Shown here one piece after another: positions 5,690-53,405 of a stretch of DNA of 64,000 bases. Source of the stretch: Chrysophaeum taylorii (taxonomy: Eukaryota; Sar; Pelagophyceae; Pelagomonadales; Pelagomonadaceae). A program made the translations under genes and the position numbers. Every line of letters starts with the position of its first letter. Position 1 is the first letter of the stretch. The stretch is from assembly GCA_029834535.1 (NCBI GenBank), contig JAQMWT010000510.1:1-64000 (forward strand), given 5' to 3'. The notes below the pieces were generated by a model that saw only the letters and a program-made list of their open reading frames with translations, searched no databases and was not told the origin of the DNA.

Positions 5690-6629
5690 GATGCGGGCGA
5701 AGGTGTACGACGGGTGCGAGCCAGTCGACGACAACGACGACGGCGCCGAAGAAGATGGCTTCGATGAGGTCGGCACAGAAGCACTCAGAAGGCGCTCGGT
5801 AAGCTGAAAGGCGCCGCATCGCCGCTCTAGAACGCTTTCGGAGCTGCGATTGAAGTTCATTTCCGCTGTTCGTGTGCCGAGGGCGTTGAGCGCCGCTTGT
5901 CGCGCCCCGTAGCGCAGCTGTACGCTCGAGTCGCCGTTCCGCGTCGCTGTTCGCGCCGCTCCAGTCCTCGATCCGTAGCGGATGTCCCGTCGCGCCCTTC
6001 GCTGCGCCGCTCCTGCGATACCTGCGCGGGTGTTGCTCGCTGCCCCTCGCGCCGCAGGCGCAGCTCGCGCCCCCGCGCCGGAGGCGGCGCTCGCGCCGGG
6101 CGTCGTTCGCGTGCTCAAAGGTGGCTGTCGCTCGCGTGCTTCGCGCGCGGTTCTTGTTGACACCGCGATCCGCTCCTACTGGCACGACGAGACGTTCGAC
6201 GCCCGCGGCGTAACGGTGCAAATCGTCCTCTTCGACACGATGATCGCGTCGGGCTTCACCGAGGATAACTCGCGCGCTTCGGTCACGCCGGCCAGTAGAC
6301 GCGGCTTCTGCGCGCACGATCTGCGGCTCGCGCTCGACCAGTGGGAGTGGCTGTGGCTGAGCGCGACGCGCAACGCCGACCGCGGACTAACTCTGCGTGG
6401 GGGGCCGTTATCCCGCGTTGTCGGCGTGCTCGCAAGGCCAGGTATTCGAGCTCGTGTCGACCCTCAACCTGAAGCTCGAAGTCTTCGGCCCTAATTACAC
6501 CCAAATCAGTCCGACGTCCTGGACATCCACGCGCCCCAGTCGCCGCGCTCGTCTGTCCGGGACGCTTCTGCCCGTGCGGCCCGAGATTGGAGTCGTCCAG
6601 TACCACGGAACTGGCGACCACGCAGGCGC
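5690..6629. other. Unassigned GC-rich stretch
   Basis: About 940 bases between the inverted repeat and the Helitron upstream array. Long open frames exist on both strands (for example minus 5495-6317 and plus 5982-6494), but they are arginine/alanine-rich, overlap one another and show no recognisable motif, as expected from high GC. No gene is supported. It could be the 5' flank of Helitron H1 or captured sequence. Confidence 0.5.
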
Positions 6630-6637
6630 ACGAATGA

Positions 6638-6835
6638 CATTTTCTTTGTGACCAGATGAAATTTCTTTGGTGACCAAAAGACATTTTTCGTGCCTGTCAA
6701 CAAGAGAGTGTCATTGGTCACCCAAAAAATGTCATTTGGTCATGGCCTGACCAAATGACATTTTTTTGAGAGACCAGATGACATCACACAAAACCGAAAA
6801 AGGTCGTGACCAAATGACACTTTTTCGTGACCAAA
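6638..6835. repeat. Iteron-like TGACCAAATGACA array with perfect hairpin
   Basis: At least seven copies of the 13-mer TGACCAAATGACA or close variants occur in about 200 bases in both orientations. Two of them form a perfect hairpin: AAAAAATGTCATTTGGTCA (6724-6742), spacer TGGCC, then its complement (6748-6766). The array lies immediately upstream of, and slightly inside, the first Helitron Rep frame, whose first residues (RDQMT repeated) are simply the translated repeats. Inference: binding sites for the Helitron Rep or for a host factor. Confidence 0.7.
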
Positions 6836-7623
6836 TGACAATCCCCCCTAAAAATAAACAGCGACGCTACGAGCTGCGCCGAGGTATCGTCCCGCTTGAT
6901 GATTATGCGGGGTTTCCTCGAGCACTCTACGATGCGTTCTTCCACCTATTTGTTACGCGTCGCGGGATCACGCTCAACACTATCATCCCACCTGACAAGT
7001 ACCGTCAGCTCGCGCTCGTCTTCGATAATCGATTTGCGCGTTCGATGCCACTCTTGTTTATCTGCGCGAACAAGATCCGGCGCCACAACGCGAGTCGGGC
7101 TGTTGCTGGCAGCATCAACGCGAATCCTGAGGAGTTCGAGAAACTCAAGGCCTTCGGGACGCCCCCAGATTCCAGGACAATGCTCGAATATGCCAAAATG
7201 AACCCCAAGACGAAGAAAGCCAAGCAGCTCGCAAAGGAAGTCCATTGCTTTACGCAGTTCCCTTCGGGGAAAGTGCCCTGGAGCAGTGCCGAGCGCGACG
7301 CCGAGATGAGACACGTCATGAACGACATGAGAAACCACGGACCGGGAGCCGTCTTCGTCACCCACGCCATGGACGACGTCCATAACGAGGACACCGTACG
7401 TCTCGCGTGCGCTTTCACAAAACATGGCATTTTCCCCTCTCTCGATGATCCCAACACGCCCAAAATACTCGAGCAACTCGCGTGGCCCAACGACGACCAC
7501 CCCGAAGCTCAAATCGTGCTCGACGACGCGAAGCTCAACCAGCTGGCGGGCGACAACCCCCTTGCCACTGCGCTCGTTTTCGACTTCAACAACGGAAACA
7601 TGCGCCGAACCTCCTCCGCATAG
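6766..7623 (+). pseudogene. Helitron-like N-terminal domain of H1 RepHel
   Basis: Open for 285 residues. From about residue 35 it reads like the Helitron_like_N domain: a helix-rich segment, then HVMNDMRNHGPGAVFVTHAM and DDVHNEDTVRLA, which matches the 'G.P.LFFT...D.HN' core of that family. The first 30 residues are translated iteron repeats, so the true start is uncertain and may be at a later Met or lost. The reading continues in another frame after about 7590, where LLRIDETRLKDEDL follows, so one frameshift separates it from the next segment. Confidence 0.72.
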
Positions 7624-8132
7624 ACGAAACCCGCCTCAAGGACGAAGACTTGCGTCGTCGACCTGCGGGCCTCTTCGGACGCGCGGTTGCGATGCGCATG
7701 GTCTTCGAATCCACCAAAAAAATGGCCCAACACGGCCACTCGATTTTATACGGCGGGCTCGCTCCTCGTATGTTGGCCTTCGTCGTGCATCACGCGGATC
7801 TCCGAGACGCCATGATCGAAGCTCGCAACACTCAAATTCGCGGCGACTTGCCCTACTCCTACCACGCCATCGACCTCGCCGAACGCCTCCTTCGCGAACG
7901 GCGAATCAAGGAACGAGGCGGTTTGATGATCGCACGAAACGCCCAATCGGGCGGCTACGACCGCGTCGAACTCGAACATCGCGCTCGTCGATGTGTAGCG
8001 CACACTATGACGCACCAACATCAGAAGACGTGCGAAAAAAAAATAATAACGATGGCTGTCGGCTCTGCCATCCGTGCAGCCACAACGTGAGCGAGCTCAT
8101 CTTCGAACTCAAACCCAACTGCAACAAAAACT
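7591..8132 (+). pseudogene. Middle part of H1 RepHel with Cys/His-rich stretch
   Basis: One frame (to 8090) covers a helical segment with MAQHGHSILYGGLAPRMLAF and then EHRARRCVAHTMTHQHQKTC. The next recognisable piece, GCRLCHPCSHN, is in a second frame after a run of nine A at about 8035-8043, and the main Rep frame resumes at 8133. The H..T..C.....CR..HP pattern is the one seen in Helitron proteins before the Rep core. The poly-A slip looks like a simple decay event. Confidence 0.65.
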
Positions 8133-10904
8133 ATGCGACCACCCGCGATAGCGGACCATGTCGACATACGTTGCTTCTGCTACGAGAAGCATCGCCACCG
8201 ACGCGACGAAGACGATAAGCGGAAGCTCGTCGATGTCGAGGCAACTACCAAGATCGCGCGCATCGGTACGGAACCTGGACTTCACCTCGATAACCAGGAC
8301 GAGCGACCCATCGTCTTCGACGTACATCGCCCTCTTTTGTCAGAGTCGGCTACGCACGAAGAAAGAAAAAAAGACCCGTTCTGGCAACTCCGAGCGCTCG
8401 TCCACAACGGCTTCCGATTCCAGGACTTGGATGCAAAAGGCCAACCGACCTCCATGGGAGACTGGGACCGACGTACATGGCTCGCAGAGATTATCGAAAA
8501 AGAACGGCCGATCGGTGCGACCTTGCGATGTCCAGGATACGGAAAAATCCTCGAGCACCTCGCAGAGCTCGCGTCCGCGGCCTCCTTCGAACGACCCGAG
8601 GTCCGCGCCAGGTTGCGGAAGCTCTTCGATGCCTGGACATGGAACGATTTCGAATGCCGGAACGCCCTCATTCCGGACTACAACGAAATAGCGGTTCTCG
8701 CTGAAGGCAGCAACGTCAACGCGCAGTCGATGGGAATCGGCGTCAACGCCAAGGAAACCGCGCTCTACCTGTCGAAGTACGTCTCCAAACACGTCTCGCA
8801 AATCACGTATGCGGCGTCCCTCTTCGCCGACGCTTGGGACGCTGTCAAGGAATACAAGACGTCCCCAAACACGGACGACGACGCCGTGAAAACCACTTTT
8901 GCGAAACAAGTCGCGCAGCGCATCGTCAACTCCCAGTGCGACGAACTCGAGAGCGTGGAAGCTGCCAGTATCGTGCTCGGGCTGCCCTCGTCGTTTTCTT
9001 CTGAGAAACACGTCCCCTTTTCGACCGCGGACCACGTCACTTTCTTGTGGCAACAGAAGAAAAAATATCAAGAAGAAATCGGCGAAACCGACAGCGACGA
9101 CGACGACAAGAATAACTATCGACAAGAAGTTGACGAAGTCGACGACGACGACGACGACGCTCGAGATGACGATGCCCCTTCAGATGCCGCGCTACGAGAA
9201 GACGCAGGCAAGCCATCTCGGGACGAAATGCCACGTGAGAAGTCCATCTTCTCCCGAATCTTCGTCACGATCGAGAACGGCGACCGCAAGACCGTCGTCG
9301 TGACGCAACCCGAGACCTACGCCTGGCGCGACGAACGTCTCGTTGATGTCAATGCGACCGAGTTTGCACGCCTCTTTCAATTACGCGTCGCGAACCATAC
9401 CGACCGCGATTGGCTCGAAACGTATCGAGATCACTTCTACCGCTACGCCATCGCCGATCCCATCGCCGCATCACGCGCCGCCGCCGCCTGCGCCGACGCG
9501 CCCGACGACAAGGCGGGACGACCCGTCCATCGATTCGTGCTTCGAGAACCGCACCCTTTGCGCCGAACTCATCTCCTCGTCCGAAGAGCAAAATCCGTCT
9601 TGCTCTCCTACGTGGGGACGCGACCGGTCACCAAAACTCAATCGCAGAAACAAATCGAACGCAACATGGCTCTTTACGCCGCAGCCTTCGTGCCCTGGAT
9701 TTTGCGCGAGTGCGAGCGCCCATTCGAACCAACGGTTTCGACGTTCGCACGGTTTTATGATGCACTCGAGACAGACGCTTGCCTGCGCGGCCCAAAAAAC
9801 GACCAAGATCCGGCGCGTCGTCGCAAGCGAGCCGTCGCCGTCGGGCGTCACGCTGCGATCCAAAACTTCGACCCAACGTTTAACGACAAGATCGCGGCGC
9901 TCATCCTTCATTTTCGAGGGCGATACCGGGACCTTTGGATCGACACTCCCCGGCCTACTGAGGCCATTCCCGTTCGCGAAAGAGACGATGGCGCTGCCGC
10001 GAAAGCGCTCGCCGTCGTCCGCGTTGCCTTTTCCCCAGATGAAAGCCAAGCACGACAGCTCCAAACGCGCGGCGACGAAATCAAGCGGCTCAAAGATGTG
10101 AGAGATTCTGTCGTGAGCGCCCTTCATCCGCTGCCGCCACGAGGCCACGCGGCCGCGTCTGCGCCGTACGACGAAATTTGCGAGAATTTTCGCTCCGCCC
10201 TCACGGCCGCAGTTTCGCCACACCTCATACGACACTTTCGCGACACGGACCAAACGAGACAATGGCTACGACAGCCGCTCGCCCGCGAAGACGGCTTCGC
10301 GCGCGCTCGTCGAGAACAAAAGACTAGACTCGGAACGAGCGCGCATTCGACGCCACCCGGCGACGTCGAGATGCCGCAAGCGTTCGACCCCCTCACGGAC
10401 GACCAATGGCAACGACAACGAGCAGCGTGGAATCGGGCAAATCCCAAACCGGGTCCGCCCCCGCTTACTCCTCTTCGGCGCAAATTCGGCGCCGCTCTTT
10501 ATCGCGTCATCCGAAATTCCGTCGAAGCTCCCGATCGCGCCGACACCGTCGAAAACATCCAGGACACCTTAGCAGCCGCCGGCTTCGGCTCCATGCAGGT
10601 CTATCTCCTCGTTGGTCCCGGAGGATCGGGAAAGACCGCCGTCCTCAAAATTCTCCGCGACCAAGCGCGCGAAGACAACCTCGGGCACATCATCATGGCC
10701 TCCTATGTCGGCGTCGCGTCCGCCGCCTTCCGAGAAGCGACGTTGCTCACCATGCTTCATCTCGGCAGGACCACCAAAATTCCGGCGTCCGTCGAGTCGT
10801 CGCGTTTGGAGGCCCAGCGTCGCAACTTCGAAATTCAAACCGGCGTCAAGCTCCAAGACGTCGTCCCCTCGTCCCCTTCGTCATCGACGAGGCCTCCTTC
10901 ATAA
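8133..10904 (+). pseudogene. Rep core and first part of PIF1-like helicase of H1
   Basis: A 923-residue open frame. Near residue 195-225 it has YNEIAVLAEGSNVNAQSMG followed by ALYLSKYVSKH. The two tyrosines four residues apart (YLSKY) fit the paired catalytic tyrosines of Helitron Rep. An acidic linker (about 325-355) separates this from the helicase, whose Walker A motif GPGGSGKTA lies near residue 830. The frame ends shortly after KLQDVVPSSP; the Walker B part continues in another frame (10862-11122), so a frameshift lies near 10860. Role: nicking and strand transfer plus unwinding in rolling-circle transposition. Confidence 0.8.
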
Positions 10905-18550: not shown

Positions 18551-21190
18551 GAGCGAGCCGAATGTGCGCGTCAAAGGTGAAAAGATCAATAAGAGCCACC
18601 CTGAGGTGAGGTTCAAATACGAAGAAAAGTTCGATGTGCCATGGAAGGATGCGCCGCGCGATGCGGACGGTGTACCGTTACCGCAGACTCCCGAGCACGT
18701 CAAGGACAATGATGCGATGAAAGTCGTAATTCCGACGAAGGAAGAAGTCGAAAAGGTTGTTCGAGATCTAGGAATTCCCGACAACCCGCATCTGGATGAT
18801 GATGCGAAGATGATGTTGAGCCACTGCGTGCAATACGCGTGGGCTTTCTTTGATCCGATTATGAGACCCGTGGACTCGCCACCGGTTTCTCTACGCTTTA
18901 AAGACGCAAACCCACGACCGATCAAGATGACGCCTTATAGGTTGACGCCAGCAAAGCTCGAGTGTCTCAGAAAGCAGATCACTGAGTGGTGTCGCGATGG
19001 AGTCATCCGACCGGCGAACTCTCCGTGGGGATTTCCTGTACTGATGCTGCCTAAGAAGGGAGCAGAGGCCGGGACGTCGAATGCTTTTCGTGCTGCCGTT
19101 GACTTGCGTCAGCTCAATGATCAGCTGGTCAATGACAGTTGGCCGAATATTCGTCAAGATGATGCTTTGGCTTTTCTTGCCATGCGCCGTTGGCGGACGT
19201 GCATTGATATTCGATGGGGTTATCATAACTTACGTTTGGACGCCGCTGCTCAGGACGCCGTTACGATGGTTAGTCCACTTGGAGCCCACAGTTTCTTGCG
19301 CTAGCCTCTAGGAGTTAAAACAGCAGGAGCTCTCTTTGTAAGCAGATGGCTAGCGATTTGTCCACATGGATGTATAAGGACTTGGTCGCGTTTGTCGACG
19401 ATATTATGATGGGATCGGATGAACTCCATCGACATTTACAAGTTTTGATTGAAGTGTTGTGCCATTTAGCACAGCGAGGATATAGTGGACGAACTTCGAA
19501 GTTCCACCTCCTCAAGGATGAAATCGAGTTTTTGGGACATATTTCGACTCCGGAAGGCTTGAAGCCGAATCCCAAGACGTTAGAAGCGTTGCAGCAGATG
19601 CCGATTCCCGGTACGTTGCCCAATACGTCCCCGAAGACCCAGATTCGATCTTTCATTGGCATGAGCAACTATTGCCGCCGATATGTGAAGAATTATTCGA
19701 AGATTGTGGAGCCGCTTAGGCGATTGTGTCTTGAAGGCGTTAAGTTTGAGTGGACGCCTGAGTGCCAAAAGGCATGGGACACGATCATCGAAGCTTTGGT
19801 GGATTCTCGTGGAGTTTATCATCCTGACTACGATCTTCCTTTTCAGATCCGCTCGGATGCTTCCAAGGATGGTCTGGGTGCGTATCTTTTTCAGCTCGTG
19901 GAAATCAAGGACGAAACCGGCAAGGTGACACGAGAGGAACGAGTAATTGAGTATTGGAGCCGAGCTGTGCCGAAAGAGATGCGGAACTATGAGCCTCGCC
20001 GGCTAGAGCTACTGGCAGTTTATTCTTTCTCTTGAGCATTTCCGCTCTTATATTGAAGGTCACAAGACGATCCTTGAAACAGATCATCGCAACTTGACGT
20101 TTTTACGAAAGGCGAAGCACTCGTCTGGGCAGTTGGCTCGATGGGCGATGCGGCTCGCCAATTTTGATCCTGAATTGGGTTACAAGCCAGGGAAGTCGCC
20201 GGGAATGAGCATCCCTGACTGTCTCTCTCGCAATCCTATAGATCATGTCATCGAGACGGACGAGTTTGGTGAACCCTTGAACCACGCGTATCTAGTGTGC
20301 CAAGAACTCCCTCGTTCTGTTGATGATGAAGGAGTACCTTTACCTGGGTGTCATGTCATTCTGTCGTTTGTTGCGACTGAGTTGCCTGTGGAGGAAGAGG
20401 ATGAAGACCTCGATGATCCGATGCAATTGGTCACGTCTCATGCTACGAAACAACGTCAGAAGCAACGACTTCAGACCCAGCCTAGTATTTCCCGTGATGC
20501 CGATGATTACCAAGAGTACATCGACAAGATTCCGGATAATTTGACTTTGGAAGAGATAGCCAAAGAGCAGATCACTGATGCTACTTGCGAGGACATTCGT
20601 TATCGCATGGCTCAGGGCCATTCTCTTCGTCGGTACGGAGCCAATTATCGCTATCAAGTGGTGAAAGGAGTTCTCTACCGTGCCGCACTTGACTTGCACC
20701 CGATGATAGTCGCACCCCGAACTTTACGGACGCGCATCATCCGATTGTACCATGACACACCTCTCAATTGTGGTCATATGGGTCGTCAAAGTACAGTGCA
20801 GTCGACACTTGAACGTTTTTGGTGGCCTCATGTGTATAATGAGGTGGGTGCTAACATTGCTGGTTGCATAGTGTGCAAGAAAGCTCGTACGCCTGAACCA
20901 AAGAGAGCAGGTCTGCTTCAGCAACCGGTGTATGATGGTGATTGTGTCGTCCTTTGTATGGATTTGTTTGGACCTTTGCCCAGTGCTGGTCCCGAGACAT
21001 ATCTCATCGTTTTTTTTGATCCATTTTCTCATTTCTTGATTCTTGACGTACTACGCCATAAGACTGCTGAGTCAATCCTCGAGTCTTTTGTCGCGAATAT
21101 ATTACTCAAAGGTTATCTACCTCAGAGGATTCGTACCGACAATGGGAAAGAGTTCGTCAACAAGTTGATGGAAGAGTTTTGTCATCTTGC
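18551..21190 (+). pseudogene. RT, RNase H and partial integrase of element G
   Basis: Gypsy-type order. RT: PYRLTPAKLECLRKQITEW, then AVDLRQLND, then the catalytic FVDDIMMGS. RNase H: IRSDASKDGLGAYLFQ and, later, ETDHRNLTFLRKAK. Integrase: the HHCC zinc region (YHDTPLNCGHMG ... CIVCKK), DLFGPLPSAGPETYLIVFF and RIRTDNGKEF. The plus-strand sequence matches B closely until about 21190, where unrelated sequence begins. Broken. Confidence 0.82.
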
Positions 21191-21932
21191 AGAGAAATCT
21201 GCTGCCTCTTACCCTTATCCGTCCGTTGAGAACGTGACCTCTTCCTTACCCTTCTTCTTCCTTTCGACACAATCAAATAGTCCTCTGATTTGTGCCTACG
21301 CTCATCATCATGGTCTAGCGCGTCCCGAGGTATCTAGCACTATACACTTCACCTTTCTCGTGTAGTTCTAGATGCCGCCTGTCGTGTTCTGAGGATATAG
21401 GGAACATACCTTTTCATTCCCCGAATTAACTACTTCCAGACGTTCACGATGAGATGGGATGGTTTCCCAGGTGATTTACCACTGCTTGCTAAATGCTCTG
21501 CAGGTTATGGGCCCAGGCGGGTCCCTGAGAAACCATGTGTCAACATGCACGTAGCCTATGGGTATTGGGCTGTTACCGCGCCAGCTCAGCCTCGACGTGT
21601 GACACGCTTGTCAATATATCGCCATTACCATTGGACTGTATATAATATCTTTTTAGCTCACGTGATCACGTAACCTTGTGTGCACCTGTTCATAGCATCG
21701 TATTGTCATGTCAATGTTGATGTGTGTGTAATTGGCTAACCTGTACTCTTGCAAACATGTTATGGAATATTTTGGGTACGTCCACTCGTACATTCCATGG
21801 CAATGCTTAACAAGCTCCTCGAGAGCACCAAAACTAACCAGCTGCCTGAGTGACTACGCTTAGCGACACTACTCTGGACTCACAGCTTGCACAGTCGTCA
21901 TATAGACACATTTTCCATCGAAAAATCGATGA

Positions 21933-24797
21933 GTGTACATAGACACCGATAGACAGACCCCCTTAGAATGTCTAGACAGTGTCAACTGCGTGACTGAACC
22001 CACAGGTTCCCCGTCAACTGCTATGGCAGAACACGCAGCACGAGCCGCACCTAAGGCGATCACAGGTGCGGATATATTGAAGCTCGAAGCTCCTGTAGTT
22101 GAGTTCCTTAATGACGGGAACCGCTTTCAGCTTCAGAACCGCAAGGTATCCTTGCAAATCAAGCATATCAAGCAATTACTACGGTCCAGTCATGCCGATG
22201 CTTTCCTCGAGTACGACTCGTATGAAGCATATACTCGGCCATGCAAGGACTACGAAATCCTCCGGAATCAAATTCTCGATCGCGTTTTATTGGAATGGAA
22301 GACCGATAGGGCTGCTGATCTCCGCTTAACTGTTGATGAGTTACCCCCTGAGTATCATGAGTGGCATTTCACCGACGAAGCTTTTCCCCACTTGCCTGAT
22401 GCAGAAGTAGCTCAGCTAACTACCGTCTGTTACGACTATGAAGTCAAAGCATTACGTCCTGAAATCAACGCTCGTTTCTTAGAAGAGGAACGAATCTTAA
22501 ATCGCGCGCACCCGAAGGCACTAGCTTTCGACACTCGTGGTCGTGCCCCGGTTACCATGTTTTCGTTAACTGCAGCTGACTGGCACACTTACCAGAACAC
22601 GTACGCTACATTTTTACATACTTACTTCAATCTTGAAAGTGTTGGAAAACCGGCACTTGCGGCCTGGCCCGCCATCAATGAGATATACAACAAAAGCTAT
22701 TTACCCAACAAGGCTCGAGCTATTATGCTCATCGCCTTTAATCACTACGAGTCTGTTACGACTACTGATGTGTCTTATTTGAAACAGCAATTTAACTCTG
22801 TTGTTTATAATCCTAACTGGTATGTCCATGTATTTATCGAAGCTGTCCTAGCATTTAGGCAAATCTCTTACCAACTTAACCAGGAAGAGACTGACCTTCA
22901 ATTCGACTTTGGCACTCTTTGCAGAAAAATCTATGGAGAGATACATCGGCACTATGCCGATAATACCAGCAACAATCGTTACGATCGTGGTTGGGTAGAT
23001 TGGTGTTATATGTACGAAACCCGATCTTCATCTCGACCTGTACCAGAAGCTGAACGATTGTGTCACCCTACCAACCCAAGCTACATTTTAGAATACGCAT
23101 TAGACCTTTACAATGTCGTATCAAATGGGTCGAACAAAAGACGCTTAGAACGCCCTGTTTCTTGGCAACCCTATGTCGAAGGTTTATCATCTCAACCAAA
23201 GCCAAAGTTACTCCTTACACATACTTTGGACTCATCGGACAAAAGTCTGACTCAAACTGCTAACACACTCGCCTTCATCACTTCGTCCCAACCTGGTACA
23301 TCTTCCACGTTTAATGCTAGACGCTTGCGTAACTCTAATGATGCTCGCCAGCCTTTCTCTCGCAGCGATTTATCGTATTATCGTCCTGGTGATTCTTACG
23401 TCACCAAGAAAACTGCCGGACAGTCCCATGACCGTCCAATTTACCCCCGCACTTTTGACAGGTCCTCTCGGTCTAACATGAAATTATTAGATCGAACAAA
23501 CCACACCTTAAACACCCTGCGAGAGCAGTGTAGCGAACTCACGAAGCATGTGACAGATAATGATACCACGGCTCAGCTACAACAGAATATCAACAAGTTA
23601 TTTGAGACCTTGCTACAATCAGCCGATATCCTGTCAACAACATCTACTGAGGACAACAGTAGTTTACTTCGTCTAAACGAACAGCTCATGTTTGCAGAAG
23701 ACATCATTTATGATGTAGACGTTCATCTATCCTCGACCGAAAAGTCGTTAAACTACGTGGAGCCACAACACCATACTGTCGTTACTGCTCCCACCCCAAC
23801 AACAACTCCTCCTACTACAAACACACAGGGTAATCCTTCCAATACTGTGTCTAACCTCTTTACCGCTTCCGCCATCTCGGCTTTACCACCAGCATTATTG
23901 TCCTCGCTATCTTCACAGGTCCAATCTGCCCTCAACCTACCACCACAAGCCGAAACCAAAAGGGATGCCGATCACACCTCTCTATCGTCATTTGACGAAA
24001 AGCACGGCATGGCTGATGAGGCTGACGAGCCATCACCACCTGTTCAACCGATCATTATTCCAACGAATCTGTTATTGCTGAAGAACTTCTTTACCGCCAG
24101 TCTCTCCACTACTTGCCCACATTCGGAAAACGCCTTCCTCACCAACTACATGAAGGTAAACAGTGTCCCTCCACATTGCTCTTTCCTATATTTTGACTCT
24201 TGTGCTACCATCTCATTGATGTCCACCTACGATTTCGCTATACCCAATCATATAATACCATTGGACTCTAAGTACGCTCCGATTGTTATTCAGACGGCAA
24301 CAGGACAACAACGGGCATCACACATGATGTTAACACGCAACATCGTTATTCCCCTACCAGATCATCCACAAATTGGCTACGTTAAGATCGACTTCGCTTT
24401 ATGTCTTCAACCAGTGCATGACCGACATCTCGCTATCCTGAGCATGCTCGAATGGAACCAGACCAATCTTACCACCGTGTTCAACGATCGAGCTGAGCCA
24501 AAGCTCAGCGCTGTCACGAGCCGCATAGACAAAGATGTACGTATACCCATACACTATGTCGCAGCTAATTTACCCGCTCTCCCTTGTATCACTTACAACA
24601 TCGCGCGCGACAAGCGGCTGGAACTTCGCTCCCTTGCATTTCCCCTCAAGCGATACCATGAAAACAGGGATCTACTGGCATACTACAATTACCTACTCCA
24701 ACGAGTTTTACCAGATCGACCGTGGATTCGCCCTTTGGTTCTCAATCTTCGGAAACAGAACAAATTTGTTCAGCAAAATACGCAGCCATTAAGTTGA
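21933..24797 (+). CDS. Gag-protease of the copia-like element
   Basis: A 954-residue open frame; an internal Met (MAEHAARAAPKAITGADI, 22023) is a likelier start than the first. Residues about 30-480 are a gag-like helical region unrelated to family 1 or 2 gag. A coiled-coil stretch (about 510-620) and a Thr/Pro-rich linker follow. A retropepsin-like domain near residues 755-840 reads LYFDSCATISLMS and then IVIQTATGQQRASHMM. The end overlaps the methyltransferase region in another frame. The large gag and its separation from gypsy gag support a distinct superfamily. Confidence 0.72.
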   Translation: MYIDTDRQTPLECLDSVNCVTEPTGSPSTAMAEHAARAAPKAITGADILKLEAPVVEFLNDGNRFQLQNRKVSLQIKHIKQLLRSSHADAFLEYDSYEAYTRPCKDYEILRNQILDRVLLEWKTDRAADLRLTVDELPPEYHEWHFTDEAFPHLPDAEVAQLTTVCYDYEVKALRPEINARFLEEERILNRAHPKALAFDTRGRAPVTMFSLTAADWHTYQNTYATFLHTYFNLESVGKPALAAWPAINEIYNKSYLPNKARAIMLIAFNHYESVTTTDVSYLKQQFNSVVYNPNWYVHVFIEAVLAFRQISYQLNQEETDLQFDFGTLCRKIYGEIHRHYADNTSNNRYDRGWVDWCYMYETRSSSRPVPEAERLCHPTNPSYILEYALDLYNVVSNGSNKRRLERPVSWQPYVEGLSSQPKPKLLLTHTLDSSDKSLTQTANTLAFITSSQPGTSSTFNARRLRNSNDARQPFSRSDLSYYRPGDSYVTKKTAGQSHDRPIYPRTFDRSSRSNMKLLDRTNHTLNTLREQCSELTKHVTDNDTTAQLQQNINKLFETLLQSADILSTTSTEDNSSLLRLNEQLMFAEDIIYDVDVHLSSTEKSLNYVEPQHHTVVTAPTPTTTPPTTNTQGNPSNTVSNLFTASAISALPPALLSSLSSQVQSALNLPPQAETKRDADHTSLSSFDEKHGMADEADEPSPPVQPIIIPTNLLLLKNFFTASLSTTCPHSENAFLTNYMKVNSVPPHCSFLYFDSCATISLMSTYDFAIPNHIIPLDSKYAPIVIQTATGQQRASHMMLTRNIVIPLPDHPQIGYVKIDFALCLQPVHDRHLAILSMLEWNQTNLTTVFNDRAEPKLSAVTSRIDKDVRIPIHYVAANLPALPCITYNIARDKRLELRSLAFPLKRYHENRDLLAYYNYLLQRVLPDRPWIRPLVLNLRKQNKFVQQNTQPLS

Positions 24798-25834
24798 CTA
24801 CTCGCACGACCAGTTTTCTCTCACAAGAGTCCAATCTCCGCAAACCCTCTGTCATGTTACTTTGTTCTGGTTTGTCAACTCCGGCGTTCCTGTCTCAAGC
24901 CACTAATGACTTAGGCTTAAATATCAATGTAAAAGTTGTTGTTGAGTCTGATGATACGCTTGTTCGTATGTTACGCCACCGTTTTCCTACTGTACTATTA
25001 TTTGAATCTCTCCCCGCCTTTATTAACCATCTTCACCTAATCTCACCCGAGGAAAGGCGCACATTCTATTGTGATATAATTGAGATCACTCCTCCCTGCA
25101 CAAACAGGAATTTACTAAAACAACAAAAGTCAGAAGACTTACACAGTCTGCTGGACGATTCTCTTTTCGACAGCATGCTGTCTGTCATCAAGCTACTCCA
25201 GCCCTTGGTACTACTGGCTGAGATGACGCCTCCGCATAAGTACTGTCATCAAGACCACATCACAGTGGCCAACCTTATCTATACTACCCTTGATTACTGT
25301 GTCGATGTTGTTGATAGGTTCCCGACCTACCTATGTGGCGACTACCAATCTAGAGAAAGGTGGATATGCGTCGCCCGCAGATATTCTACTGGACCAATTA
25401 AACTATCATCGTGGCCCATCCTCCATCCACGCCCCTTCCTAAAGATCGTGGATGATCTACAAGCTATTCCCAAGCGCCTTTGGCTACCTAACCACCTAAC
25501 CAAAGACTGGATCCGGGTGTTCCCCGATCCTCCATATATACCCGTTCCTAAAACGTTTGCACCTTACTCTCGCACAGGTTCTGCTCAGCTTACTATGGCT
25601 GACCTTGAATCCCTCAATATGTTACTACTTCGCCTTCACTCACAACAGGCTCACGAGCAACGTACTCACTCTGTTCAACCCGAGTGTACTTACCATCAGT
25701 TGTGCTTTAAACGCTCCTCTATGGAGCCATTACCCAATGCAACACATCCTATACACGTCGAGATTTTACAATCCTCTATAACGTGTTCGCAAGCTTACAT
25801 ACTAACTCACCCACTCCTGTGTCCTATTACATAA
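24722..25834 (+). CDS. C5 cytosine methyltransferase-like domain of the copia-like element
   Basis: A 370-residue frame. Motif I-like: KPSVMLLCSGLSTPAFLSQA (about 24840-24900) with acidic VVVESDDT of motif II. Motif IV-like: CDIIEITPPCTN (about 25070-25103), the GPPC loop with the catalytic Cys. Motif VI-like: LVLLAEMTPPH. Motif VIII-like: YQSRERWICVARR (about 25342-25383), close to the PQxRERxxxxG of C5 enzymes. A target-recognition-like segment with several Trp and Pro follows. Motifs IX and X are not clear. The sequence is only remotely like the methyltransferase of the gypsy-like elements, so it looks like a separate capture. Activity cannot be judged. Confidence 0.72.
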   Translation: MDSPFGSQSSETEQICSAKYAAIKLTTRTTSFLSQESNLRKPSVMLLCSGLSTPAFLSQATNDLGLNINVKVVVESDDTLVRMLRHRFPTVLLFESLPAFINHLHLISPEERRTFYCDIIEITPPCTNRNLLKQQKSEDLHSLLDDSLFDSMLSVIKLLQPLVLLAEMTPPHKYCHQDHITVANLIYTTLDYCVDVVDRFPTYLCGDYQSRERWICVARRYSTGPIKLSSWPILHPRPFLKIVDDLQAIPKRLWLPNHLTKDWIRVFPDPPYIPVPKTFAPYSRTGSAQLTMADLESLNMLLLRLHSQQAHEQRTHSVQPECTYHQLCFKRSSMEPLPNATHPIHVEILQSSITCSQAYILTHPLLCPIT

Positions 25835-26060
25835 CCGTTTTCGAAACTAACCAACCGTCACACAGGTTATTACTTACAACCTCATCAACATCACACAACT
25901 CCTACTTCTTAACTGGTGGCCACCATTCCGACGGCAACCTCACCATAGAGAACGCCACCACCAACCAAAGACCCCCATCAACGCCTTTGGGAGCACGTAT
26001 ACGTTCACTGCTTCCGACATCCCCCGCGACCGGGACAGGTCCATATATCTGGAGCCGTTT

Positions 26061-27420
26061 ATGGGTTACTTGTGGATAGTCCAAGCCCTTCCCCAAGTTG
26101 GCTCCGCTACCACCTATGGCACCGCCATACAAAACCTCGTGTCCAGATGCGCTCTCGTGATGCCTGGCTGCCTTACCTACAAGGCCACCGACAACTCTTT
26201 CGATTACAAGGATTCTCTTTTTGCTCTGGAAGATCATCACCTATCTCATAGTCGCTATATAGGGTACCTTCGTGGAAGTGACCGCAAGCTCGGCTCTAAA
26301 ATCCACTCAATGCTTGCTCCATTGCCAACCGTCCGAGGGTATGCCAATATTATTTTACTCGACCCTCGCAACGGGAAATTACGCTACCCCACTCGACCGG
26401 AGTTGATTCGTGCTAACAACCACACCAAACAACAGGAATCTTTCCTCTTGTCTCTACGCCATGACCTTTGCTGTGACATGCTCAGCAATGCTCTGCCTGC
26501 CGGTACGTATAGCACTCTGTACAAGCACCTTTCGCTCATCGTCGCCGATATTAAATCCCTTATGTTGGACCCTACCTTCCAACATACTGCTGCCGTGACG
26601 AAGAAACCCTATGTATCCAATTTCATGACCGTTGACTCATTGCCTTCCCGCCGTACATGCACCACTTTAACTTTGAAGTTGAGTCTGCCATCGGTTTCAT
26701 CGCCTCCGCCTCCTCAACTCGCCTTCGTTCTCTCCTTAATGCTCACTATCGTGGCGCCAAGATCGTGGAGCCCGCTATCATGTTCCCATGGGCGGTGATA
26801 CACACCGTTCAAAGCTATAACCTTCTCCCGAACGCCACGCTCGAGCGCATTCATCATGCTATTCTGAGTCCGTAACAGCTACTCTACAACCAACTCAGCA
26901 CTCCCCAACACGATATGCTCAAGATTTTTGGCGCTGAATGTTACCTCCTATTGGAGCCCCATGAACACCACAAGTGGGAACCGTGCCGCCGCAAATATCT
27001 GTATCTCTGTTGCGCCAACGCACAAAACCCGCTCGTCTCCCCACGCGTCGACCATCTCGCTGACGTCGTCCTCAACCCTGGAAACGGACAAATTCGTGTT
27101 TCGTCCAAGCTGCAATTCCTCTACATGTTGCAGCATCCTACTCCTGATCCTGAACTAGCTTCTCCGCCACACGCTCCTTCCGCGCCTTTCTCGCTCACAC
27201 CCCACACCACTATGCAAGATCATATCATTCAGAGGTGGACGAAGACTTCTCATCCTCAGAGGGGGCACTCCCCACCTCCTTCAGCTCCTCCTTCTTCGTC
27301 CCCTACTCCGGTCTCTTCTCCATCTTCTGACGCTACCGCCGACGAATCTGGCTCTATGTCACCGCCGCCCTTGCTTCCTTCTTACGAAGATCTTTTTGCA
27401 CAAGATGACCTCATTCTTGT
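26061..27420 (+). pseudogene. Integrase region of the copia-like element (partial)
   Basis: The clearest part is 26657-27160: AIMFPWAVIHTVQSYNLLPN resembles the '.W..A...A.YL.NRLP' helix of copia integrases, followed by MLKIFGAECYLLLEPHEHHK and the KYLYLCC strand, then a Pro/Ser-rich linker. The upstream 26061-26600 part (YLWIVQALPQVGS, GYANIILLDPRNGKLRYP) is probably the integrase core but I cannot place its acidic residues. Broken. Confidence 0.55.
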
Positions 27421-27422
27421 CC

Positions 27423-28553
27423 CACGCCGTTTGTTTTCTTCCTCTATCTGCCGGAGGATGCTCTCTTGTGCGCTTTCGTTTTCTCGGCGTAACTCGCGTA
27501 AATGTGCTTCATAAATCTCGTTGACGATCGGTGTTTCGTTGTCTCGCGCACGTGCTGGATGGGTTGCCGGTTGCCTCGCCGGCGGCGCTCCCAGCGGTTC
27601 GTTGCCGTTGTAGTTCAGCTCTTCTTCATCATCATCATCCTCGGTATCATCATCATCATCATCATCATCGTCGTCATGCCGTTCGTTCGTCCCCTCGGGA
27701 TGACTTGAAGGTTCGGGTTCTCGCATCTGCCCGCCAGCAGCGTCGTCTTCCTCCATGTCGGTGTCGGCTCGCTCCAATCGGCCAAAATCAGAACGGGTCC
27801 AAGAAGGTTGAGTCGTCGTCGTTCTCGTGCTCCTACGACTCTTGGACTTTGGCTTGTCCACGTCACGCGTAATATCGTCGCCGCGTGCGTCTTCCACCGA
27901 CCGATCTATCGGTTCCGGTGGGCGGCAGAGTCCGTCTCTGCCCGGCAATCAATGCCTCAGTGAGTAGCGAACTCACTCCGCTCGCCTGCGGCAGCGGTAC
28001 CCGGGTTGCGCGTCTGCTCCAACCGATCCGCGCGTCGTCACCTCCGACGGCTAAAGTATCCGGCCGGGGATCTTCCCCACGGCGATGGTCCCTCTCGAAC
28101 TCTTCGTCGGCGCGCTTGATCAGGGCGCGCACGGCTTGTCCGGACCGTGTAGAGAATGCAAGATGCACTCGTCCGCTGCGACCGATATGGTCGCTCGAAT
28201 CTCGTATTCCTCCACCACCTGTGGCGGACAGGGAAATTTTCCTACCTGGGCTCACCTTCGAATCTAGGCTCGCCGCTCACGCCCGGGCTCTTGGTCGAGT
28301 CGCTGGACGTGGAAGGCCGTTCACCCGCCACACAACCACAAACAACTTCCGTGCCTGGTCCTCACAACTGGAGGATCGGCTGTTGCTTTATGTTTAAGAT
28401 ACACTTGAATCACTGAAATCAGGGTGACGTATGTCACAGAAAAGGAAGATGATGTCACAGAGAACTGACATCATCAGATCGGAGTAGGGTACCCCTGATA
28501 AGGGTGAGCCCCAAAGTTGGGGTAAGCCTTAGGAGGAGGAAGTTTCCGCCACA
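27423..28553 (-). mobile_element. LTR retrotransposon fragment C (family 1)
   Basis: Minus strand. It holds a complete 5' LTR (28220-28553), leader and the first part of gag (MEEDDAAGGQMREPEPSSHP from about 27756), ending at 27423 against the copia-like element. It is nearly identical to the matching part of element E (51105-52237) because both lie in the duplicated host segment, so the two descend from one insertion. A 6-base microhomology (CACGCC) lies at the junction. Broken remnant. Confidence 0.82.
28220..28553 (-). repeat. 5' LTR of fragment C
   Basis: Opens TGTGGCGGAAACTTCC at 28553 on the minus strand and closes CCGCCACA at 28220, followed by the primer-like GGTGGTGGAGGAATACGAG. It is related to the LTR of A and nearly identical to that of E. 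Confidence 0.85.
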
Positions 28554-28758
28554 CCATCACAGCGTGCAAGAGCGACGCAAGTATCGCGATCAGCTTGATT
28601 CAACTCGATTACGCCACCTTCGTCGAGCGCCAGCCATGTGGCAGATGTGTGACAGACGCACATTGAACTTCCCGTTTATACTATCCGTTCAGTGTCGAAA
28701 ATACTGAAAAACTGAGCTAGCGACGACGGCTTCGCCAACGCAGAAATCAGCCGAAGCG

Positions 28759-28805
28759 CTTTGGTTAAACCCTTCTCTTCGAGAGGGCTAGTTTTTCAAC
28801 CAAAG
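28759..28805. repeat. Palindromic hairpin element, copy 2
   Basis: CTTTGGTT (28759-28766) and AACCAAAG (28798-28805) enclose CCCTTCTCTTCGAGAGGG, itself a near hairpin, and GGCTAG. The inner part and right arm also occur at 13321-13356. Confidence 0.55.
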
Positions 28806-29049
28806 GCTGGCAATTAACGCGATTTAACATTGGCGGATTCCCAGGAAAATTGGCCGGCAATTGGCGCGCTCTCCTCTTCATCACAATGAACCCTCGGTCC
28901 GGGGCTCCCGACAGGAGGTCGGAGCCTCAGCAGCCATGACGATTTTTACGTCGAAACCAGATTTCATGATATGGTGACAGGAGCTAGAAATCGCGAATGC
29001 GCTCCCCCCGGGTGGCTCTGAGCTCCGGTCGACGCCTCGTCCGACCCTC

Positions 29050-29673
29050 TCACAGGCTGGGCCTGGGGCTGCGGGCAGGGGGGCGGTAAAGTTTCCTGGG
29101 ACCATCGTGGGGGTATCCTCGAATAAGCTTGTAATGGCGACGGTGCAGCCCCTGCCTGGTGTCACAGAATTCTGCTTGCGGGTTCTTTGGGCCAGGCTTT
29201 GCGCTGAGTTCAGAGACAGTCAGAGAGTCAGTTCCATCAACCGACTGTCTCTTCAACTCGCTAAGGAGTCTGCTGTCCGACCTGACTCGCCCTTGGGTGG
29301 AGATGGCCAAGGTTGCACTGACAATGGAGTCGTCGACGACGACCTTGCGGAACCGCGGGGGCATGACGCCTACCACTGAAAAAAGCCAAGCGGCGACGAA
29401 TGCAATAAGAACGCCGCTTCGTTCGTTTCGACGTGGGTATCCGCTGAGCGTGCTCCGTGAGTCGAGTTCTTTTTTGCCACCGTCTTCCCTGGTTAGCGCT
29501 CGATTAGGCGAAACTAGGGTTTTGGCGCTTTTTCGCAATCGCAAATTTTCCGCGGCTCGGCGTCTCGAGGCGAGAACACTCGCCGTGGCAGGCCGTGAGG
29601 CAAGGGCGGCGAGGAGTTGGTGAGGTGCGGGCCTCGAAGCGACGGAAGCTTCGCGCCGTGAGCAGTCTTCCAA
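29050..29673 (-). CDS. Hypothetical single-pass membrane protein, divergent from DRC12 (copy 1)
   Basis: A 207-residue minus-strand frame, kept open at the same length in copy 2 (52734-53357). It has an Arg/Ala-rich N-terminus, one hydrophobic segment (VLIAFVAAWLFSVVGVM, about residues 88-104), then PPRFRKVVVDDSIVSATLAI and a Ser/Lys-rich part. It could be the first exon of a longer gene: a second minus-strand frame (28881-29165) overlaps its end and is also conserved in copy 2. I recognise no family. The start is 257 bases from the DRC12 start on the other strand, suggesting a shared promoter. The high GC makes a chance frame possible. Confidence 0.38.
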   Translation of the reverse strand: MEDCSRREASVASRPAPHQLLAALASRPATASVLASRRRAAENLRLRKSAKTLVSPNRALTREDGGKKELDSRSTLSGYPRRNERSGVLIAFVAAWLFSVVGVMPPRFRKVVVDDSIVSATLAISTQGRVRSDSRLLSELKRQSVDGTDSLTVSELSAKPGPKNPQAEFCDTRQGLHRRHYKLIRGYPHDGPRKLYRPPARSPRPSL

Positions 29674-29721
29674 GTTTCACGCTTCTCCACATTCTTGGAT
29701 CATTTTTCGGCACACCCGTTT

Positions 29722-29733
29722 CGTGACGTCACG
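29722..29733. promoter_or_regulatory. CGTGACGTCACG palindrome between divergent genes (copy 1)
   Basis: A perfect 12-bp palindrome with the TGACGTCA core that bZIP factors of the CREB/ATF type bind. It lies about 50 bases from one start and 197 from DRC12, and is conserved at 53406-53417. No TATA box was seen. Regulatory role is inferred. Confidence 0.4.
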
Positions 29734-29929
29734 ATACCCCAAAGATAGTGGTTCGGAAGGTTTCGGTTCTCGCTTCTCGGACGTAACCAAAGGATTGTAC
29801 CCCCCTTTGCATGATGTCGATACTCGAAACGTCTTGGATTCGTCAATTAAAAACGTAACGGCCAACCCGGCAATCAAAGAGGGTGCGACGCTGTGTCCCG
29901 TGTAGAGTGACCTTGGATTCATCGACTGT

Positions 29930-30487
29930 ATGGCGAGCAAGAGAAACAAGGGTTACAACGCTGATGTATGTGAGGATGGTATGATGACGTCTGGTGAAGA
30001 AGCCAATATGTATCGCGCAACGTGCCAATCGTTGCAGATGCAGCTTGCTGACAGGACCGTCACAATGATTAAGGCCAAACAGGATAAGAACGGGCTAGAA
30101 AAACAAGTTGCGATGATTAAGAATGAATTCAATGAGAAACAAAAAACTGCGTTCGAAATAACCAGAGACATGACGCGGCAGTACAAGAGCATGCAAGAGC
30201 AACTTGTAGATCGGATAACGCAGCTCTCCCAAACAGTGCAGGAGCTTCAGGACAAGCTTGAACACGCAGAAAAACACTTGAATAGCACTTTAAAAGAGAA
30301 AGATCATATGATCCAGATAAAAGATGAAGAGATCGCGCATTTGAAGGCCAAAATGGAGGACATGGCACAAGAATTCGGTGGAATGCTGAAGGAAACACTC
30401 GAGAAGATGCGCGAGCGTATCGATGTCATATCTTCGAACATCGATGTGGAGATCGGAATCAAGCAAACTTACAAACACGGGAAGTAG
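29930..30487 (+). CDS. DRC12: DRC12/CCDC153-like dynein regulatory complex subunit, copy 1
   Basis: An intronless 185-residue protein, almost entirely alpha-helical coiled coil with heptads from about residue 30 to 175, the usual length for this family. The segment ITRDMTRQYKSMQEQL (about 67-82), then KDEEIAHLKAKMEDMAQEFG and MLKETLEKMRERID near the C-terminus, is the pattern I know from DRC12 (CCDC153), a small coiled-coil subunit of the nexin-dynein regulatory complex of motile axonemes. The start MASKRNKGYN is the first Met and is preceded by a conserved 257-base divergent intergenic region. About ten residues differ from copy 2; this copy keeps the Arg of DMTRQYK. Other short axonemal coiled-coil proteins are the main alternative. 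Confidence 0.74.
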   Translation: MASKRNKGYNADVCEDGMMTSGEEANMYRATCQSLQMQLADRTVTMIKAKQDKNGLEKQVAMIKNEFNEKQKTAFEITRDMTRQYKSMQEQLVDRITQLSQTVQELQDKLEHAEKHLNSTLKEKDHMIQIKDEEIAHLKAKMEDMAQEFGGMLKETLEKMRERIDVISSNIDVEIGIKQTYKHGK

Positions 30488-30719
30488 CATGATCAGGCGG
30501 GAATTTGCCTCCGTGCAAATCTTAAGGGTAAACTGGCTCGTGGCGCGCTGCGCACCCTAAAGGAAGTGGGGCCTCGAGAAAACGTGCCGATGCTGTTCGG
30601 GGTGTAATTAAGATGTAGGCGAGTGTCGAGCACATAACAGGTCGTGTAGGGTATACTGGTTCGCAGCATATAGATATATTATCCACCCGATTCAGCAGAC
30701 AGTGACCGGGTAGTGTCCC

Positions 30720-31150
30720 ATACGGGGATGGGGATTTCCCAAAAAACGGGTAGGGAGACCCGCATGGAGCGGGTTTGACGGGTGCGGGTACGGCGGGTCC
30801 GGGTAGAAAACGCACTCTTTTGGGGCTTAGGGGGTGCGGATGCACGGAAGGTGCGGGCACATGATGGGTCTGGGTACACGGGGGGTATGGGTACATGATG
30901 GGTGCGGGTACGTGATGGGTGCGGGTATACGGACGGTGCGGGTGCACGGAGGGTGCGGGTACATGATGGGTCTGGGTACGCGGAGGGTTCGGGCACGTCG
31001 TGCGCGGGTGCGTCGAGGAGGCAGGTACGCTCGAGAGTGGGTACGGTGGTCGGAGACACCCACTTGGCACGAGGTCGTTCTAGTGCGATTCCGCACGTTT
31101 CCGGGCTCTTTTGACCATCGGGTGTACCAGATACCCTCCGTACCCGGTAC
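30720..31150. repeat. Degenerate GGGTAC/GGGTGC tandem tract, copy 1
   Basis: Dozens of 6-8 base units such as GGGTAC, GGGTGC, GGGTCTGGGTAC and ATGATGGGT. Proline- and arginine-rich frames on the minus strand here are translated repeats, not genes. Similar tracts lie at 54420-54830 and 44960-45130. Confidence 0.75.
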
Positions 31151-31191
31151 CCGGCTAGAGGTAGAAAATTTCATTTTCGCCATGACCCCCC

Positions 31192-33878: not shown

Positions 33879-33904
33879 CCCATGATGAAGATGAACACGG
33901 AAAT

Positions 33905-34740
33905 ATTATTTGCCTGAAGCGGAATGGTCATCGTCGATGTGTATAGCGTCTCCGCCCTGCGTTCATTCCGCACTCTGCAACTTGACATCCAGAGATGTTG
34001 GCAAGGGTGTTACGGCCACTAACTGGACGATGAAGTTGTGCAAGATGGCTGGCTTCATGATGTGGCTGATTGAAGAGGAGGCGTCCATTATTTCGTATAT
34101 AGCGCGTTTACACCCTTACGTGTACGTCGTCAATTTTCATGATATCACACCTACTCTGATGAGCTCTCGCGTGCGATTGTTGGTTTCCAGTCACCCACTG
34201 CACTTGCAAGAGGCTCCGAAGACATGTGTGAACATGCAACAAAAATTTGCTGCAGCTTTGGGTTATGCTCATGAACGCCACCTTCTCCAGCTGAATAATC
34301 TTGGCTCGTCCCGATAAGCAACAGATACGGCTTACACCGTTACGCGGGTTCCTCTTCGTTTGGGACCGCATCGCTCGGACACTCCGCCTTTGACTCTCAA
34401 GATGACGGCCGAGTTGCTCACGATGCCGGTGGATCATGATTGGGCTAGCTTGTCTAAGACAGACTCGTTCAAACATTTAGCGTCTGTCGTCCCTCCAGAT
34501 ACTCTTGCGATTTTTGCAGTCGATCTGCACAATTCCGTGACCAGAGGTTTCCGCCAAAGTGGTGAAGTCCTGCCGACCGCGTTGAGCCCGACAGATCGAT
34601 CCTTTGAGCAGTATTTACGAATCTCCGACACCACCTTTCGTCACGTAGAGTTTCCGCTGTTAAACACGCGTACTCGTGTCGTTAAGTGGGTGTCAAAGGA
34701 TGATCTCCAGGATCCCACTAAATGGGAACCGCCAGAAGTT
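33905..34740 (+). pseudogene. C5 cytosine methyltransferase domain (motifs IV-X) of element B
   Basis: Seen in order: motif IV CIASPPCVHSALCNL (about 33940-33985), a motif VI-like WLIEEEASII, motif VIII-like TPTLMSSRVRLLVSS (about 34150-34190), then in the next open stretch motif IX-like PPLTLKMTAELLTMP (about 34385-34430) and motif X-like FKHLASVVPPDTLAIFAVDL (about 34470-34530). The same motifs recur in elements E and F. The segment runs into the EVPMLPLPTDAPGTAHAF linker that in element G also leads to RT, placing the methyltransferase between gag and RT. Broken. Confidence 0.78.
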
Positions 34741-35035
34741 CCTATGCTTCCGCTTCCAACTGATGCGCCGGGGACGGCTCATGCTTTTTCTGCTGCCCCC
34801 CCCCGACAATCAAAATGGACTTTCCGCCGGATCCTGAACCTGAACAGGAGCCGAAAGTAAGGAGCGAGCCGAATGTGCGCGTCAAAGGTGAAAAGATCAA
34901 TAAGAGCCACCCTGAGGTGAGGTTCAAATACGAAGAAAAGTTCGATGTGCCATGGAAGGATGCACCGCGCGATGCGGACGGTGTACCGTTACCGCAGATT
35001 CCCGAGCACGTCAAGGACAATGATGCGATGATGCG

Positions 35036-51438: not shown

Positions 51439-51901
51439 GTCGGCGTCGGCTCGCTCCAATCGGCCAAAATCAGAACGGGTCCAAGAAGGTTGAGTCGTCG
51501 TCGTTCTCGTGCTCCTACGACTCTTGGACTTTGGCTTGTCCACGTCACGCGTAATATCGTCGCCGCGTGCGTCTTCCACCGACCGATCTATCGGTTCCGG
51601 TGGGCGGCAGAGCCCGTCTCTGCCCGGCAATCAATGCCTCAGTGAGTAGCGAACTCACTCCGCTCGCCTGCGGCAGCGGTACCCGGGTTGCGCGTCGGCT
51701 CGAACCGATCCGCGCGTCGTCACCTCCGACGACTAAAGTATCCGGCCGGGGATCTTTCCCACGGCGATGGTCCCTCTCGAACTCTTCGTCGGCGCGCTTG
51801 ATCAGGGCGCGCACGGCTTGTCCGGACCGAGTAGAGAATGCAAGATGCACTCGTCCGCTGCGACCGATATGGTCGCTCGAATCTCGTATTCCTCCACCAC
51901 G

Positions 51902-52237
51902 TGTGGCGGACAGGGGAATTTTCCTACCTGGACTCACCTTCGAATCTAGGCTCGCCGCTCACGCCCGGGCTCTTGATCGAGTCGCAGGACGTGGAACGCC
52001 GTTCACCCGCCACACGACCACAAACAACTTCCGTGCCTGGTCCTCACAACTCGAGGATCGGCGGTTGCTTTATGTTTAAGATACGCTTGAATCACAGAAA
52101 TCAGGGTGACGTATGTCACAGAAAAGGAAGATGATGTCACAGAGAAAACTGACATCATCAGATCGGAGTAGGGTACCCCTGATAAGGGTGAGCCCTAAAG
52201 TTGGGGTAAGCCTTAGGAGGAGGAAGTTTCCGCCGCA
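51902..52237 (-). repeat. 5' LTR of element E
   Basis: Minus strand TGTGGCGGAAACTTCC region at the right edge to CCGCCACA at 51902, 336 bp, followed by the GGTGGTGGAGGAATACGAG primer-like site. Confidence 0.83.
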
Positions 52238-52442
52238 CCATCACAGCGTGCAAGAGCGACGCAAGTATCGCGATCAGCTTGATTCAACTCGATTACGCCA
52301 CCTTCGTCGAGCGCCAGCCATGTGGCAGATGTGTGACAGACGCACATTGAACTTCCCGTTTATGCTATCCGTTTAGTGTCGAAAATACTGAAAAACTGAG
52401 CTGGCGACGACGGCTTCGCCAACGCAGAAATCAGCCGAAGCG

Positions 52443-52489
52443 CTTTGGTTAAACCCTTCTCTTCGATAGGGCTAGTTTTTCAACCAAAG
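52443..52489. repeat. Palindromic hairpin element, copy 3
   Basis: CTTTGGTT (52443-52450) and AACCAAAG (52482-52489) enclose CCCTTCTCTTCGATAGGGC and TAG. One base differs from copy 2 in the inner stem. Confidence 0.52.
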
Positions 52490-53357: not shown

Positions 53358-53405
53358 GTTTCACGCTTCTCCACATTATTGGATCATTTTCCGGCACACC
53401 CGTTT

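Follow-up and report, generated by a model that had tools for sequence, protein, structure and literature searches.

A putative C5-cytosine methyltransferase domain in the Pol polyprotein of a Ty1/copia-type retrotransposon family of Chrysophaeum taylorii

Introduction

As a rule, retrotransposons are targeted by cytosine methylation. The subject here is a family of long terminal repeat (LTR) retrotransposons of the pelagophyte Chrysophaeum taylorii whose own coding sequence is predicted to include a C5-cytosine methyltransferase (MTase) domain. The starting point was a frame at 24722-25834 in a stretch of 64,000 nucleotides (positions 1 to 64,000, forward strand, of contig JAQMWT010000510.1, here C510; assembly GCA_029834535.1), referred to throughout as the window. 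An earlier reading of the window, called the original prediction below, had placed in this frame an MTase-like domain of a copia-like element, located between the protease (PR) and the integrase (IN), and had proposed that copia and gypsy elements captured such enzymes repeatedly and to their benefit.

Retrotransposons that carry a DNA methyltransferase (DNMT) are already known as a class, with long interspersed nuclear elements (LINEs), DIRS elements and gypsy elements among those described (De Mendoza et al., 2018; PMC5890265). KnitGypsy-Dnmt3 of Klebsormidium nitens resembles the present family in being an LTR retrotransposon with a C5-MTase in its Pol frame, many copies and purifying selection. 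It differs in being Gypsy, not copia, and in having an enzyme assigned to Dnmt3; the sections of the paper covered here mention no readthrough junction (PMC5890265). SymbioDIRS-Dnmt3 likewise has a C5-MTase and reverse transcriptase (RT) in one frame, but is a DIRS element with a tyrosine recombinase; self-methylation of cDNA has been proposed for this type, and CG activity of its enzyme reported (PMC5890265). SymbioLINE-Dnmt also represents an orphan DNMT lineage in a retrotransposon, but its domain lies in ORF1 of a LINE, which is not an LTR element and is without an integrase (PMC5890265).

Copia elements of Symbiodinium are said to lack a DNMT domain (PMC5890265). A single sentence in another source refers to DNMT3 members embedded in LTR Copia and DIRS elements (PMC12344493); since the source cited there is the 2018 paper, which has Gypsy as its LTR case, this may be a slip. 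The parts covered of two further papers (PMC9998398, PMC12477816) hold no copia DNMT, and a literature search resting mostly on titles and abstract openings found no copia element with the order PR-MTase-IN. The family described here shares with the DNMT-encoding class (PMC5890265) a domain within the element's coding frame in many copies, and purifying selection on that domain. As far as the covered parts of these sources extend, the copia version is a new variant of this class.

Copy number and organization of the family

The assembly searched comprises 70.8 Mb in 697 contigs. With 111 of the 1401 candidates scored, it holds at least 112 matches to the MTase, whose identity ranges from 75% to 100%. 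The frame is best explained as belonging to a large Ty1/copia-type family with a predicted C5-MTase domain in its Pol polyprotein. The presence of further copies with the same order had been set beforehand as a test. Protease region, MTase and pre-integrase region follow one another on one strand in all 30 of the best-matching loci, the window included; these loci are the best-scoring copies and not a random sample.

In locus L049, MTase, pre-integrase, integrase core, SH3 domain and copia RT are joined in a single frame of 1691 aa. RVT_2 matches residues 1431-1651 of this frame with E 7.7e-42, which bears out the assignment to copia made in the original prediction. The rve match (residues 784-866, E 0.0076) and the SH3 match (968-1007, E 5.6e-4) both lie under their curated cutoffs. 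The same order is found in L050, where the frame breaks ahead of the RT and RVT_2 (E 5.7e-42) lies in the next frame. A copy on contig C42, covered by L046 and L049, is flanked by 316-bp repeats that are 93% identical, and measures about 11.85 kb end to end by arithmetic from the overlap of the two loci.

Genome-wide, RVT_2 lies downstream of the MTase on the same strand within 6 kb in 34 pairs for the 112 MTase matches, mostly near 3.3 kb, the RT having been scored for 150 of 1670 candidates. No RVT_2 match was located upstream of an MTase or on the other strand (112 MTase matches, 149 of 150 RT rows). Taken together, the predicted layout of the element is LTR, Gag-PR, (TGA), MTase, pre-IN, IN, RT, RNaseH-like region, extra ORFs (open reading frames), LTR.

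The extra ORFs are seen in L050 at 6065-8146 (+), where frames of 427 and 266 aa lie between RNaseH and the 3' LTR. The second resembles a coiled coil, and neither has a Pfam match above cutoff.

Identity of the MTase domain

C5-MTases are recognized by named motifs of canonical form, among which motif IV contributes a catalytic Pro-Cys, motif VI a Glu and motif VIII an Arg. The four peptides on which the original prediction was based are present in the order I, IV, VI, VIII within the stop-to-stop frame 24662-25834. The MTase region of the window copy consists of the following parts.

24842-25420 (+): C5-MTase core, motifs I to VIII, assigned by sequence and profile matches and by the model of the core
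24851-24880 (+): motif I region, VMLLCSGLST; CSGLST kept in 31/32 copies
25073-25105 (+): motif IV region, DIIEITPPCTN, with the putative catalytic Cys; TPPCTN kept in 31/32 copies, Pro-Cys in 32/32
25208-25234 (+): motif VI region, VLLAEMTPP, with the putative catalytic Glu; AEMTPP kept in 31/32 copies, Glu in 32/32
25343-25381 (+): motif VIII region, YQSRERWICVARR; QSRERW kept in 29/32 copies
25421-25768 (+): C-terminal part of the MTase region, less conserved; ratio of non-synonymous to synonymous substitution (dN/dS) 0.19 between L049 and L050, 38% identity between L049 and L063

Relatives provide the link to known enzymes. In a protein search with the short frame, which reaches only relatives sharing exact short words, two proteins were found with E up to 0.001: P0001, an MMETSP transcript of 392 aa with 41% identity, and P0002, from an ENA contig, of 269 aa with 37% identity. 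An alignment query returned the same two, and the MTase part of the 1691-aa frame found no relative in the same kind of search. Two scans of viral contigs revealed no relative. P0002 matches PF00145 (DNA_methylase) with E 6.1e-5 and 23 bits, above the cutoff of 22; P0001 falls just under it (E 4.4e-4, 20.2 bits).

A second, homologous MTase family (family 2) was found through PF00145, which has 57 places in the genome. Eight of these were examined as loci (L001-L008), and L003-L008 make up family 2. A hidden Markov model (HMM) built from the window protein, P0001 and P0002 was run on a set of eight proteins and matches all six of family 2, with E between 2.1e-13 and 8.9e-11, whereas L001 and L002, other C5 genes of the genome, score only 0.64 and 0.042 in the same set. 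In the profile-profile search that had been suggested, hhalign relates the window family to family 2 at 95.5% and E 1.4e-8 (a single pair).

A joint alignment of the two copia MTase families was made with six members, including the window protein (A3). PF00145 matches five of the six (best E 1.5e-10), the window member being the unmatched one, and against PDB chains the A3 profile finds 8yf3 first (E 4.3e-8) and reaches M.HhaI at E 2.6e-6. Invariant residues in A3 are P99 and C100 in motif IV, E141 in motif VI and R187, the last Arg of motif VIII; the Pro-Cys and Glu are kept across both copia families and also in the two database relatives. The 24722-25834 frame is thus predicted to encode a divergent C5-cytosine MTase core, in agreement with the original prediction.

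Bacterial C5 MTases are stand-alone enzymes with a recognition domain. Among PDB sequences the joint profile matches M.HhaI and other members of this group best, but only their catalytic part aligns with the copia MTase. The chain 8yf3, whose title names a DNA cytosine C5-carboxymethyltransferase with carboxy-S-adenosylmethionine (Cx-SAM), is the best PDB sequence match both for A3 and for the profile of the window family alone (A1, E 0.13).

Structure prediction, also suggested beforehand, gave a divided result. AlphaFold2 produced a weak model of the whole MTase region (predicted local distance difference test, pLDDT, 46); its model of the core was fair (pLDDT 67). With the core model, the first Foldseek match is a C5-MTase, 3g7u (E 6.2e-5), whereas VIA-align places Rossmann dehydrogenases level with DNMT1. 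Fold comparison alone is indecisive, because VIA-align fails to separate C5 MTases from other Rossmann folds.

Selection on the MTase

Selection was assessed in 32 copies, comprising the 30 loci, L049 and L050. For the MTase core, dN/dS has a median of 0.15 and quartiles of 0.10 and 0.20 (217 of 496 pairs, those with dS >0.08). Between L049 and L050 the ratio is 0.09 for the core and 0.19 for the C-terminal part of the MTase, compared with 0.22 for the pre-integrase, 0.05 for the integrase and 0.15 for the RT. L063, another copia element, is 59% identical to L049 in the MTase core, 58% in the RT region, 54% in the integrase core and 41% in the pre-integrase; dS is saturated in this comparison, so that no dN/dS ratio is given. 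The MTase core is therefore kept about as well as the RT. Purifying selection and the upkeep of motifs in many relatives suggest that the element needs its MTase domain, and the selection supports the benefit to the carrier that had been proposed.

The Gag-PR/MTase junction

Of 42 blastn rows at the junction, five were dropped (four from overlapping loci, and L050, in which the site is uncovered), leaving 37 distinct junctions. The site reads TGACTA in 32, TGACCA in two, TGAATA in one and GGACTA in one, and has deletions in one. A single frame runs across it in 30/37. L063 also has an in-frame TGA at the Gag-PR/MTase border, followed by CGC. UGA CUA is a consensus for high readthrough in human cells, according to the part of that study covered here (PMC4359377). 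The conserved TGA and the continuity of the frame point to stop-codon readthrough; an internal start would be a possible alternative. Such a junction, kept among copies, predicts that MTase dosage is controlled by readthrough.

Origin of the copia MTases and the gypsy MTase

Two further copia elements picked by RT score, L062 and L063 (ranks 1 and 3), are both found by the window-family HMM, with E 1.9e-43 and 3.4e-112, respectively. The L062 frame starts just before motif VIII. Family 2 is assigned to copia on the sole basis of locus L051, in which RVT_2 (E 1.2e-40) lies downstream on the same strand; no RT match could be assigned to any of the 55 typed PF00145 places, the RT having been scored for 150 of 1670 candidates. 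One old acquisition best fits the copia MTases of the three families, because two more copia families carry homologous MTases.

The genome also contains a gypsy MTase, as had been proposed. A gypsy copy at about 31.2-38.8 kb of the window carries part of it (33895-34860), and at least 150 genomic matches to this fragment were scored. The pieces in the window have no Pfam match, but the two longer gypsy copies scanned, L057 and L056, both match PF00145 above cutoff (E 5.1e-5 and 2.9e-5), in a match limited to the motif I region. No similarity between the copia MTases and the gypsy MTase was detectable in the comparisons run, which agrees with the earlier view that the two are not recognizably close; a comparison of the copia MTases with L001 and L002 was without result. 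The lack of similarity fits separate captures by copia and gypsy and does not prove them. Repeated capture may hold between the two superfamilies, whereas within copia a single old acquisition is favoured.

An abundant copia lineage seems to have long kept its own C5-MTase, beside a gypsy lineage with another, and the two form a natural pair for asking whether methylation of its own cDNA is of advantage to an LTR element. A tentative extension, which we rate as plausible but somewhat short of an even chance, is that the order PR-MTase-IN-RT defines a whole copia clade, with at least three families here and relatives among other eukaryote sequence data, in which the enzyme is produced solely through UGA readthrough as a Gag-Pol fusion, and that a gypsy lineage of the same genome took up an unrelated C5-MTase. 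If this is true, LTR elements in this host would have a recurring need to methylate their own newly made cDNA.

Among the other C5 genes, L002 (contig C621) is a C5-MTase gene with TSC at motif IV, where PPC is usual, in a frame of 2086 aa.

Possible function and alternative explanations

The identity of the domain, its order and copy number, the upkeep of its active site, purifying selection and an in-frame TGA in a leaky context are the sequence findings on which a functional proposal can be built. From these we infer a methylating activity and a purpose. With moderate confidence, the domain is taken to be a C5-MTase of copia Pol that is made by TGA readthrough and methylates the cDNA of the element. 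Ribosomes would read through the TGA at a low rate, and the MTase would be made only as a Gag-PR-MTase-Pol fusion. In this form it could enter the particle together with IN and RT, where it would methylate cytosines of the new cDNA before integration. The methylation may mark the cDNA as self, shield it or set the chromatin state of the new copy.

Several observations weigh against this proposal or against parts of it. On its own, the window MTase protein matches nothing in Pfam up to E 1, and its Pfam, NCBIfam and PDB searches were without useful match; the A1 profile reaches its best C5-MTase in the PDB with an E value of only 0.13. Motif VI of the window family reads EMT where ENV is canonical, motif I is without the usual double Gly, and in family 2 the Gln and the first Arg of motif VIII are gone. 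The profile matches span the catalytic part only, and neither a target-recognition domain nor motif X was recognized. To these are added the VIA-align result and the selection of the 30 loci by score. In L062 the catalytic part is missing or broken in the matching frame, and seven of the 37 junctions, that of the window copy among them, are frame-offset. CpG observed/expected is 1.22 in the window and 0.96 in the copia element, indicating no depletion.

The altered motifs I and VI and the unrecognized recognition domain would also suit a true C5-MTase relative that now methylates RNA (for example the primer tRNA or genomic RNA, much as DNMT2 acts on a tRNA) or only binds nucleic acid or S-adenosylmethionine in the particle. 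When tested in yeast, the SymbioLINE enzyme failed to methylate DNA, and the authors of that work consider RNA as a target (PMC5890265). Such a role is a minority possibility, with perhaps a quarter of the weight, since the Pro-Cys and Glu are invariant in 32/32 copies, two families and two database relatives, and the domain lies beside the RT in Pol, like the DIRS enzyme that was shown to methylate CG (PMC5890265). The similar constraint on all neighbouring Pol domains could instead indicate a passenger, selected only as part of Pol (for folding, processing or spacing). The enzyme might also act on the host genome and not on cDNA; hosts of such elements can have unusual methylomes (PMC5890265). 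Both appear improbable. The core is kept better than the adjoining pre-integrase, in identity between L049 and L063 (59% vs 41%) as well as in dN/dS between L049 and L050 (0.09 vs 0.22), and the active-site motifs are kept among copies, which argues against a passenger. That the domain is another Rossmann-like fold with chance motifs, and not an MTase at all, is very hard to maintain, given that the relatives and the joint profile match C5-MTases significantly and that Foldseek ranks 3g7u first for the core.

The copia copy in the window

The remaining parts of the window copy are as follows.

21188-27424 (+): defective copia element copy, from the 5' LTR to an integrase remnant, delimited by blastn against L046, L049 and L050
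21188-21503 (+): 5' LTR, 316 bp, matching both repeats that flank the C42 copy
22023-24797 (+): Gag-PR frame, uninterrupted in the window copy and with its first Met at 22023; 53 genome matches
24195-24218 (+): protease-like motif DSCATISL, with Cys in place of Gly, assigned by motif only
24795-24800 (+): TGA CTA at the Gag-PR/MTase border; TGACTA in 32/37 distinct junctions, TGA in 35/37
25769-26635 (+): pre-integrase region, frame-broken in the window copy, by comparison with other copies
26636-27424 (+): integrase remnant with an SH3-like domain (PF25597), 23.8 bits, under the cutoff of 27

The predicted position of the MTase between protease and integrase holds, with the protease recognized by its motif. 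The canonical aspartic protease motif is D-S/T-G. DSCATISLM is present in 30 of 31 protease-motif instances found by pattern (L009-L048, overlapping loci not removed). The Gag-PR frame of the window copy has no Pfam match up to E 0.1, an aspartic protease included, and the DSCAT motif is the sole basis for recognizing one.

Codons 1-29 of the 24722-25834 ORF (24722-24808) coincide in part with the last stretch of the Gag-PR frame, and most copies have no match to them; matches in other copies mostly start at residue 30 or 31. Likeness to other copies stops near 25768, and the last residues of the ORF lie beyond another frame break. The MTase frame is shifted relative to the Gag-PR frame right after the TGA, additional frame breaks lie within the pre-integrase region, and, compared with L049, a stretch of 794 nt is missing at 26635/26636. 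At 27424, still upstream of the RT, the match gives way to another repeat, and no 3' LTR of this copy was found within the window. With its frame breaks, internal deletion and truncation before the RT, the window copy is a dead, defective member of the family. Its 5' end sits inside a gypsy copy.

A 3.7-kb repeat, present at 27423-31157 and 51105-54828 with 96.7% identity, borders the truncated copia copy. Imperfect, G-rich 17-bp tandem repeats occur at 30833-30996 of the window.

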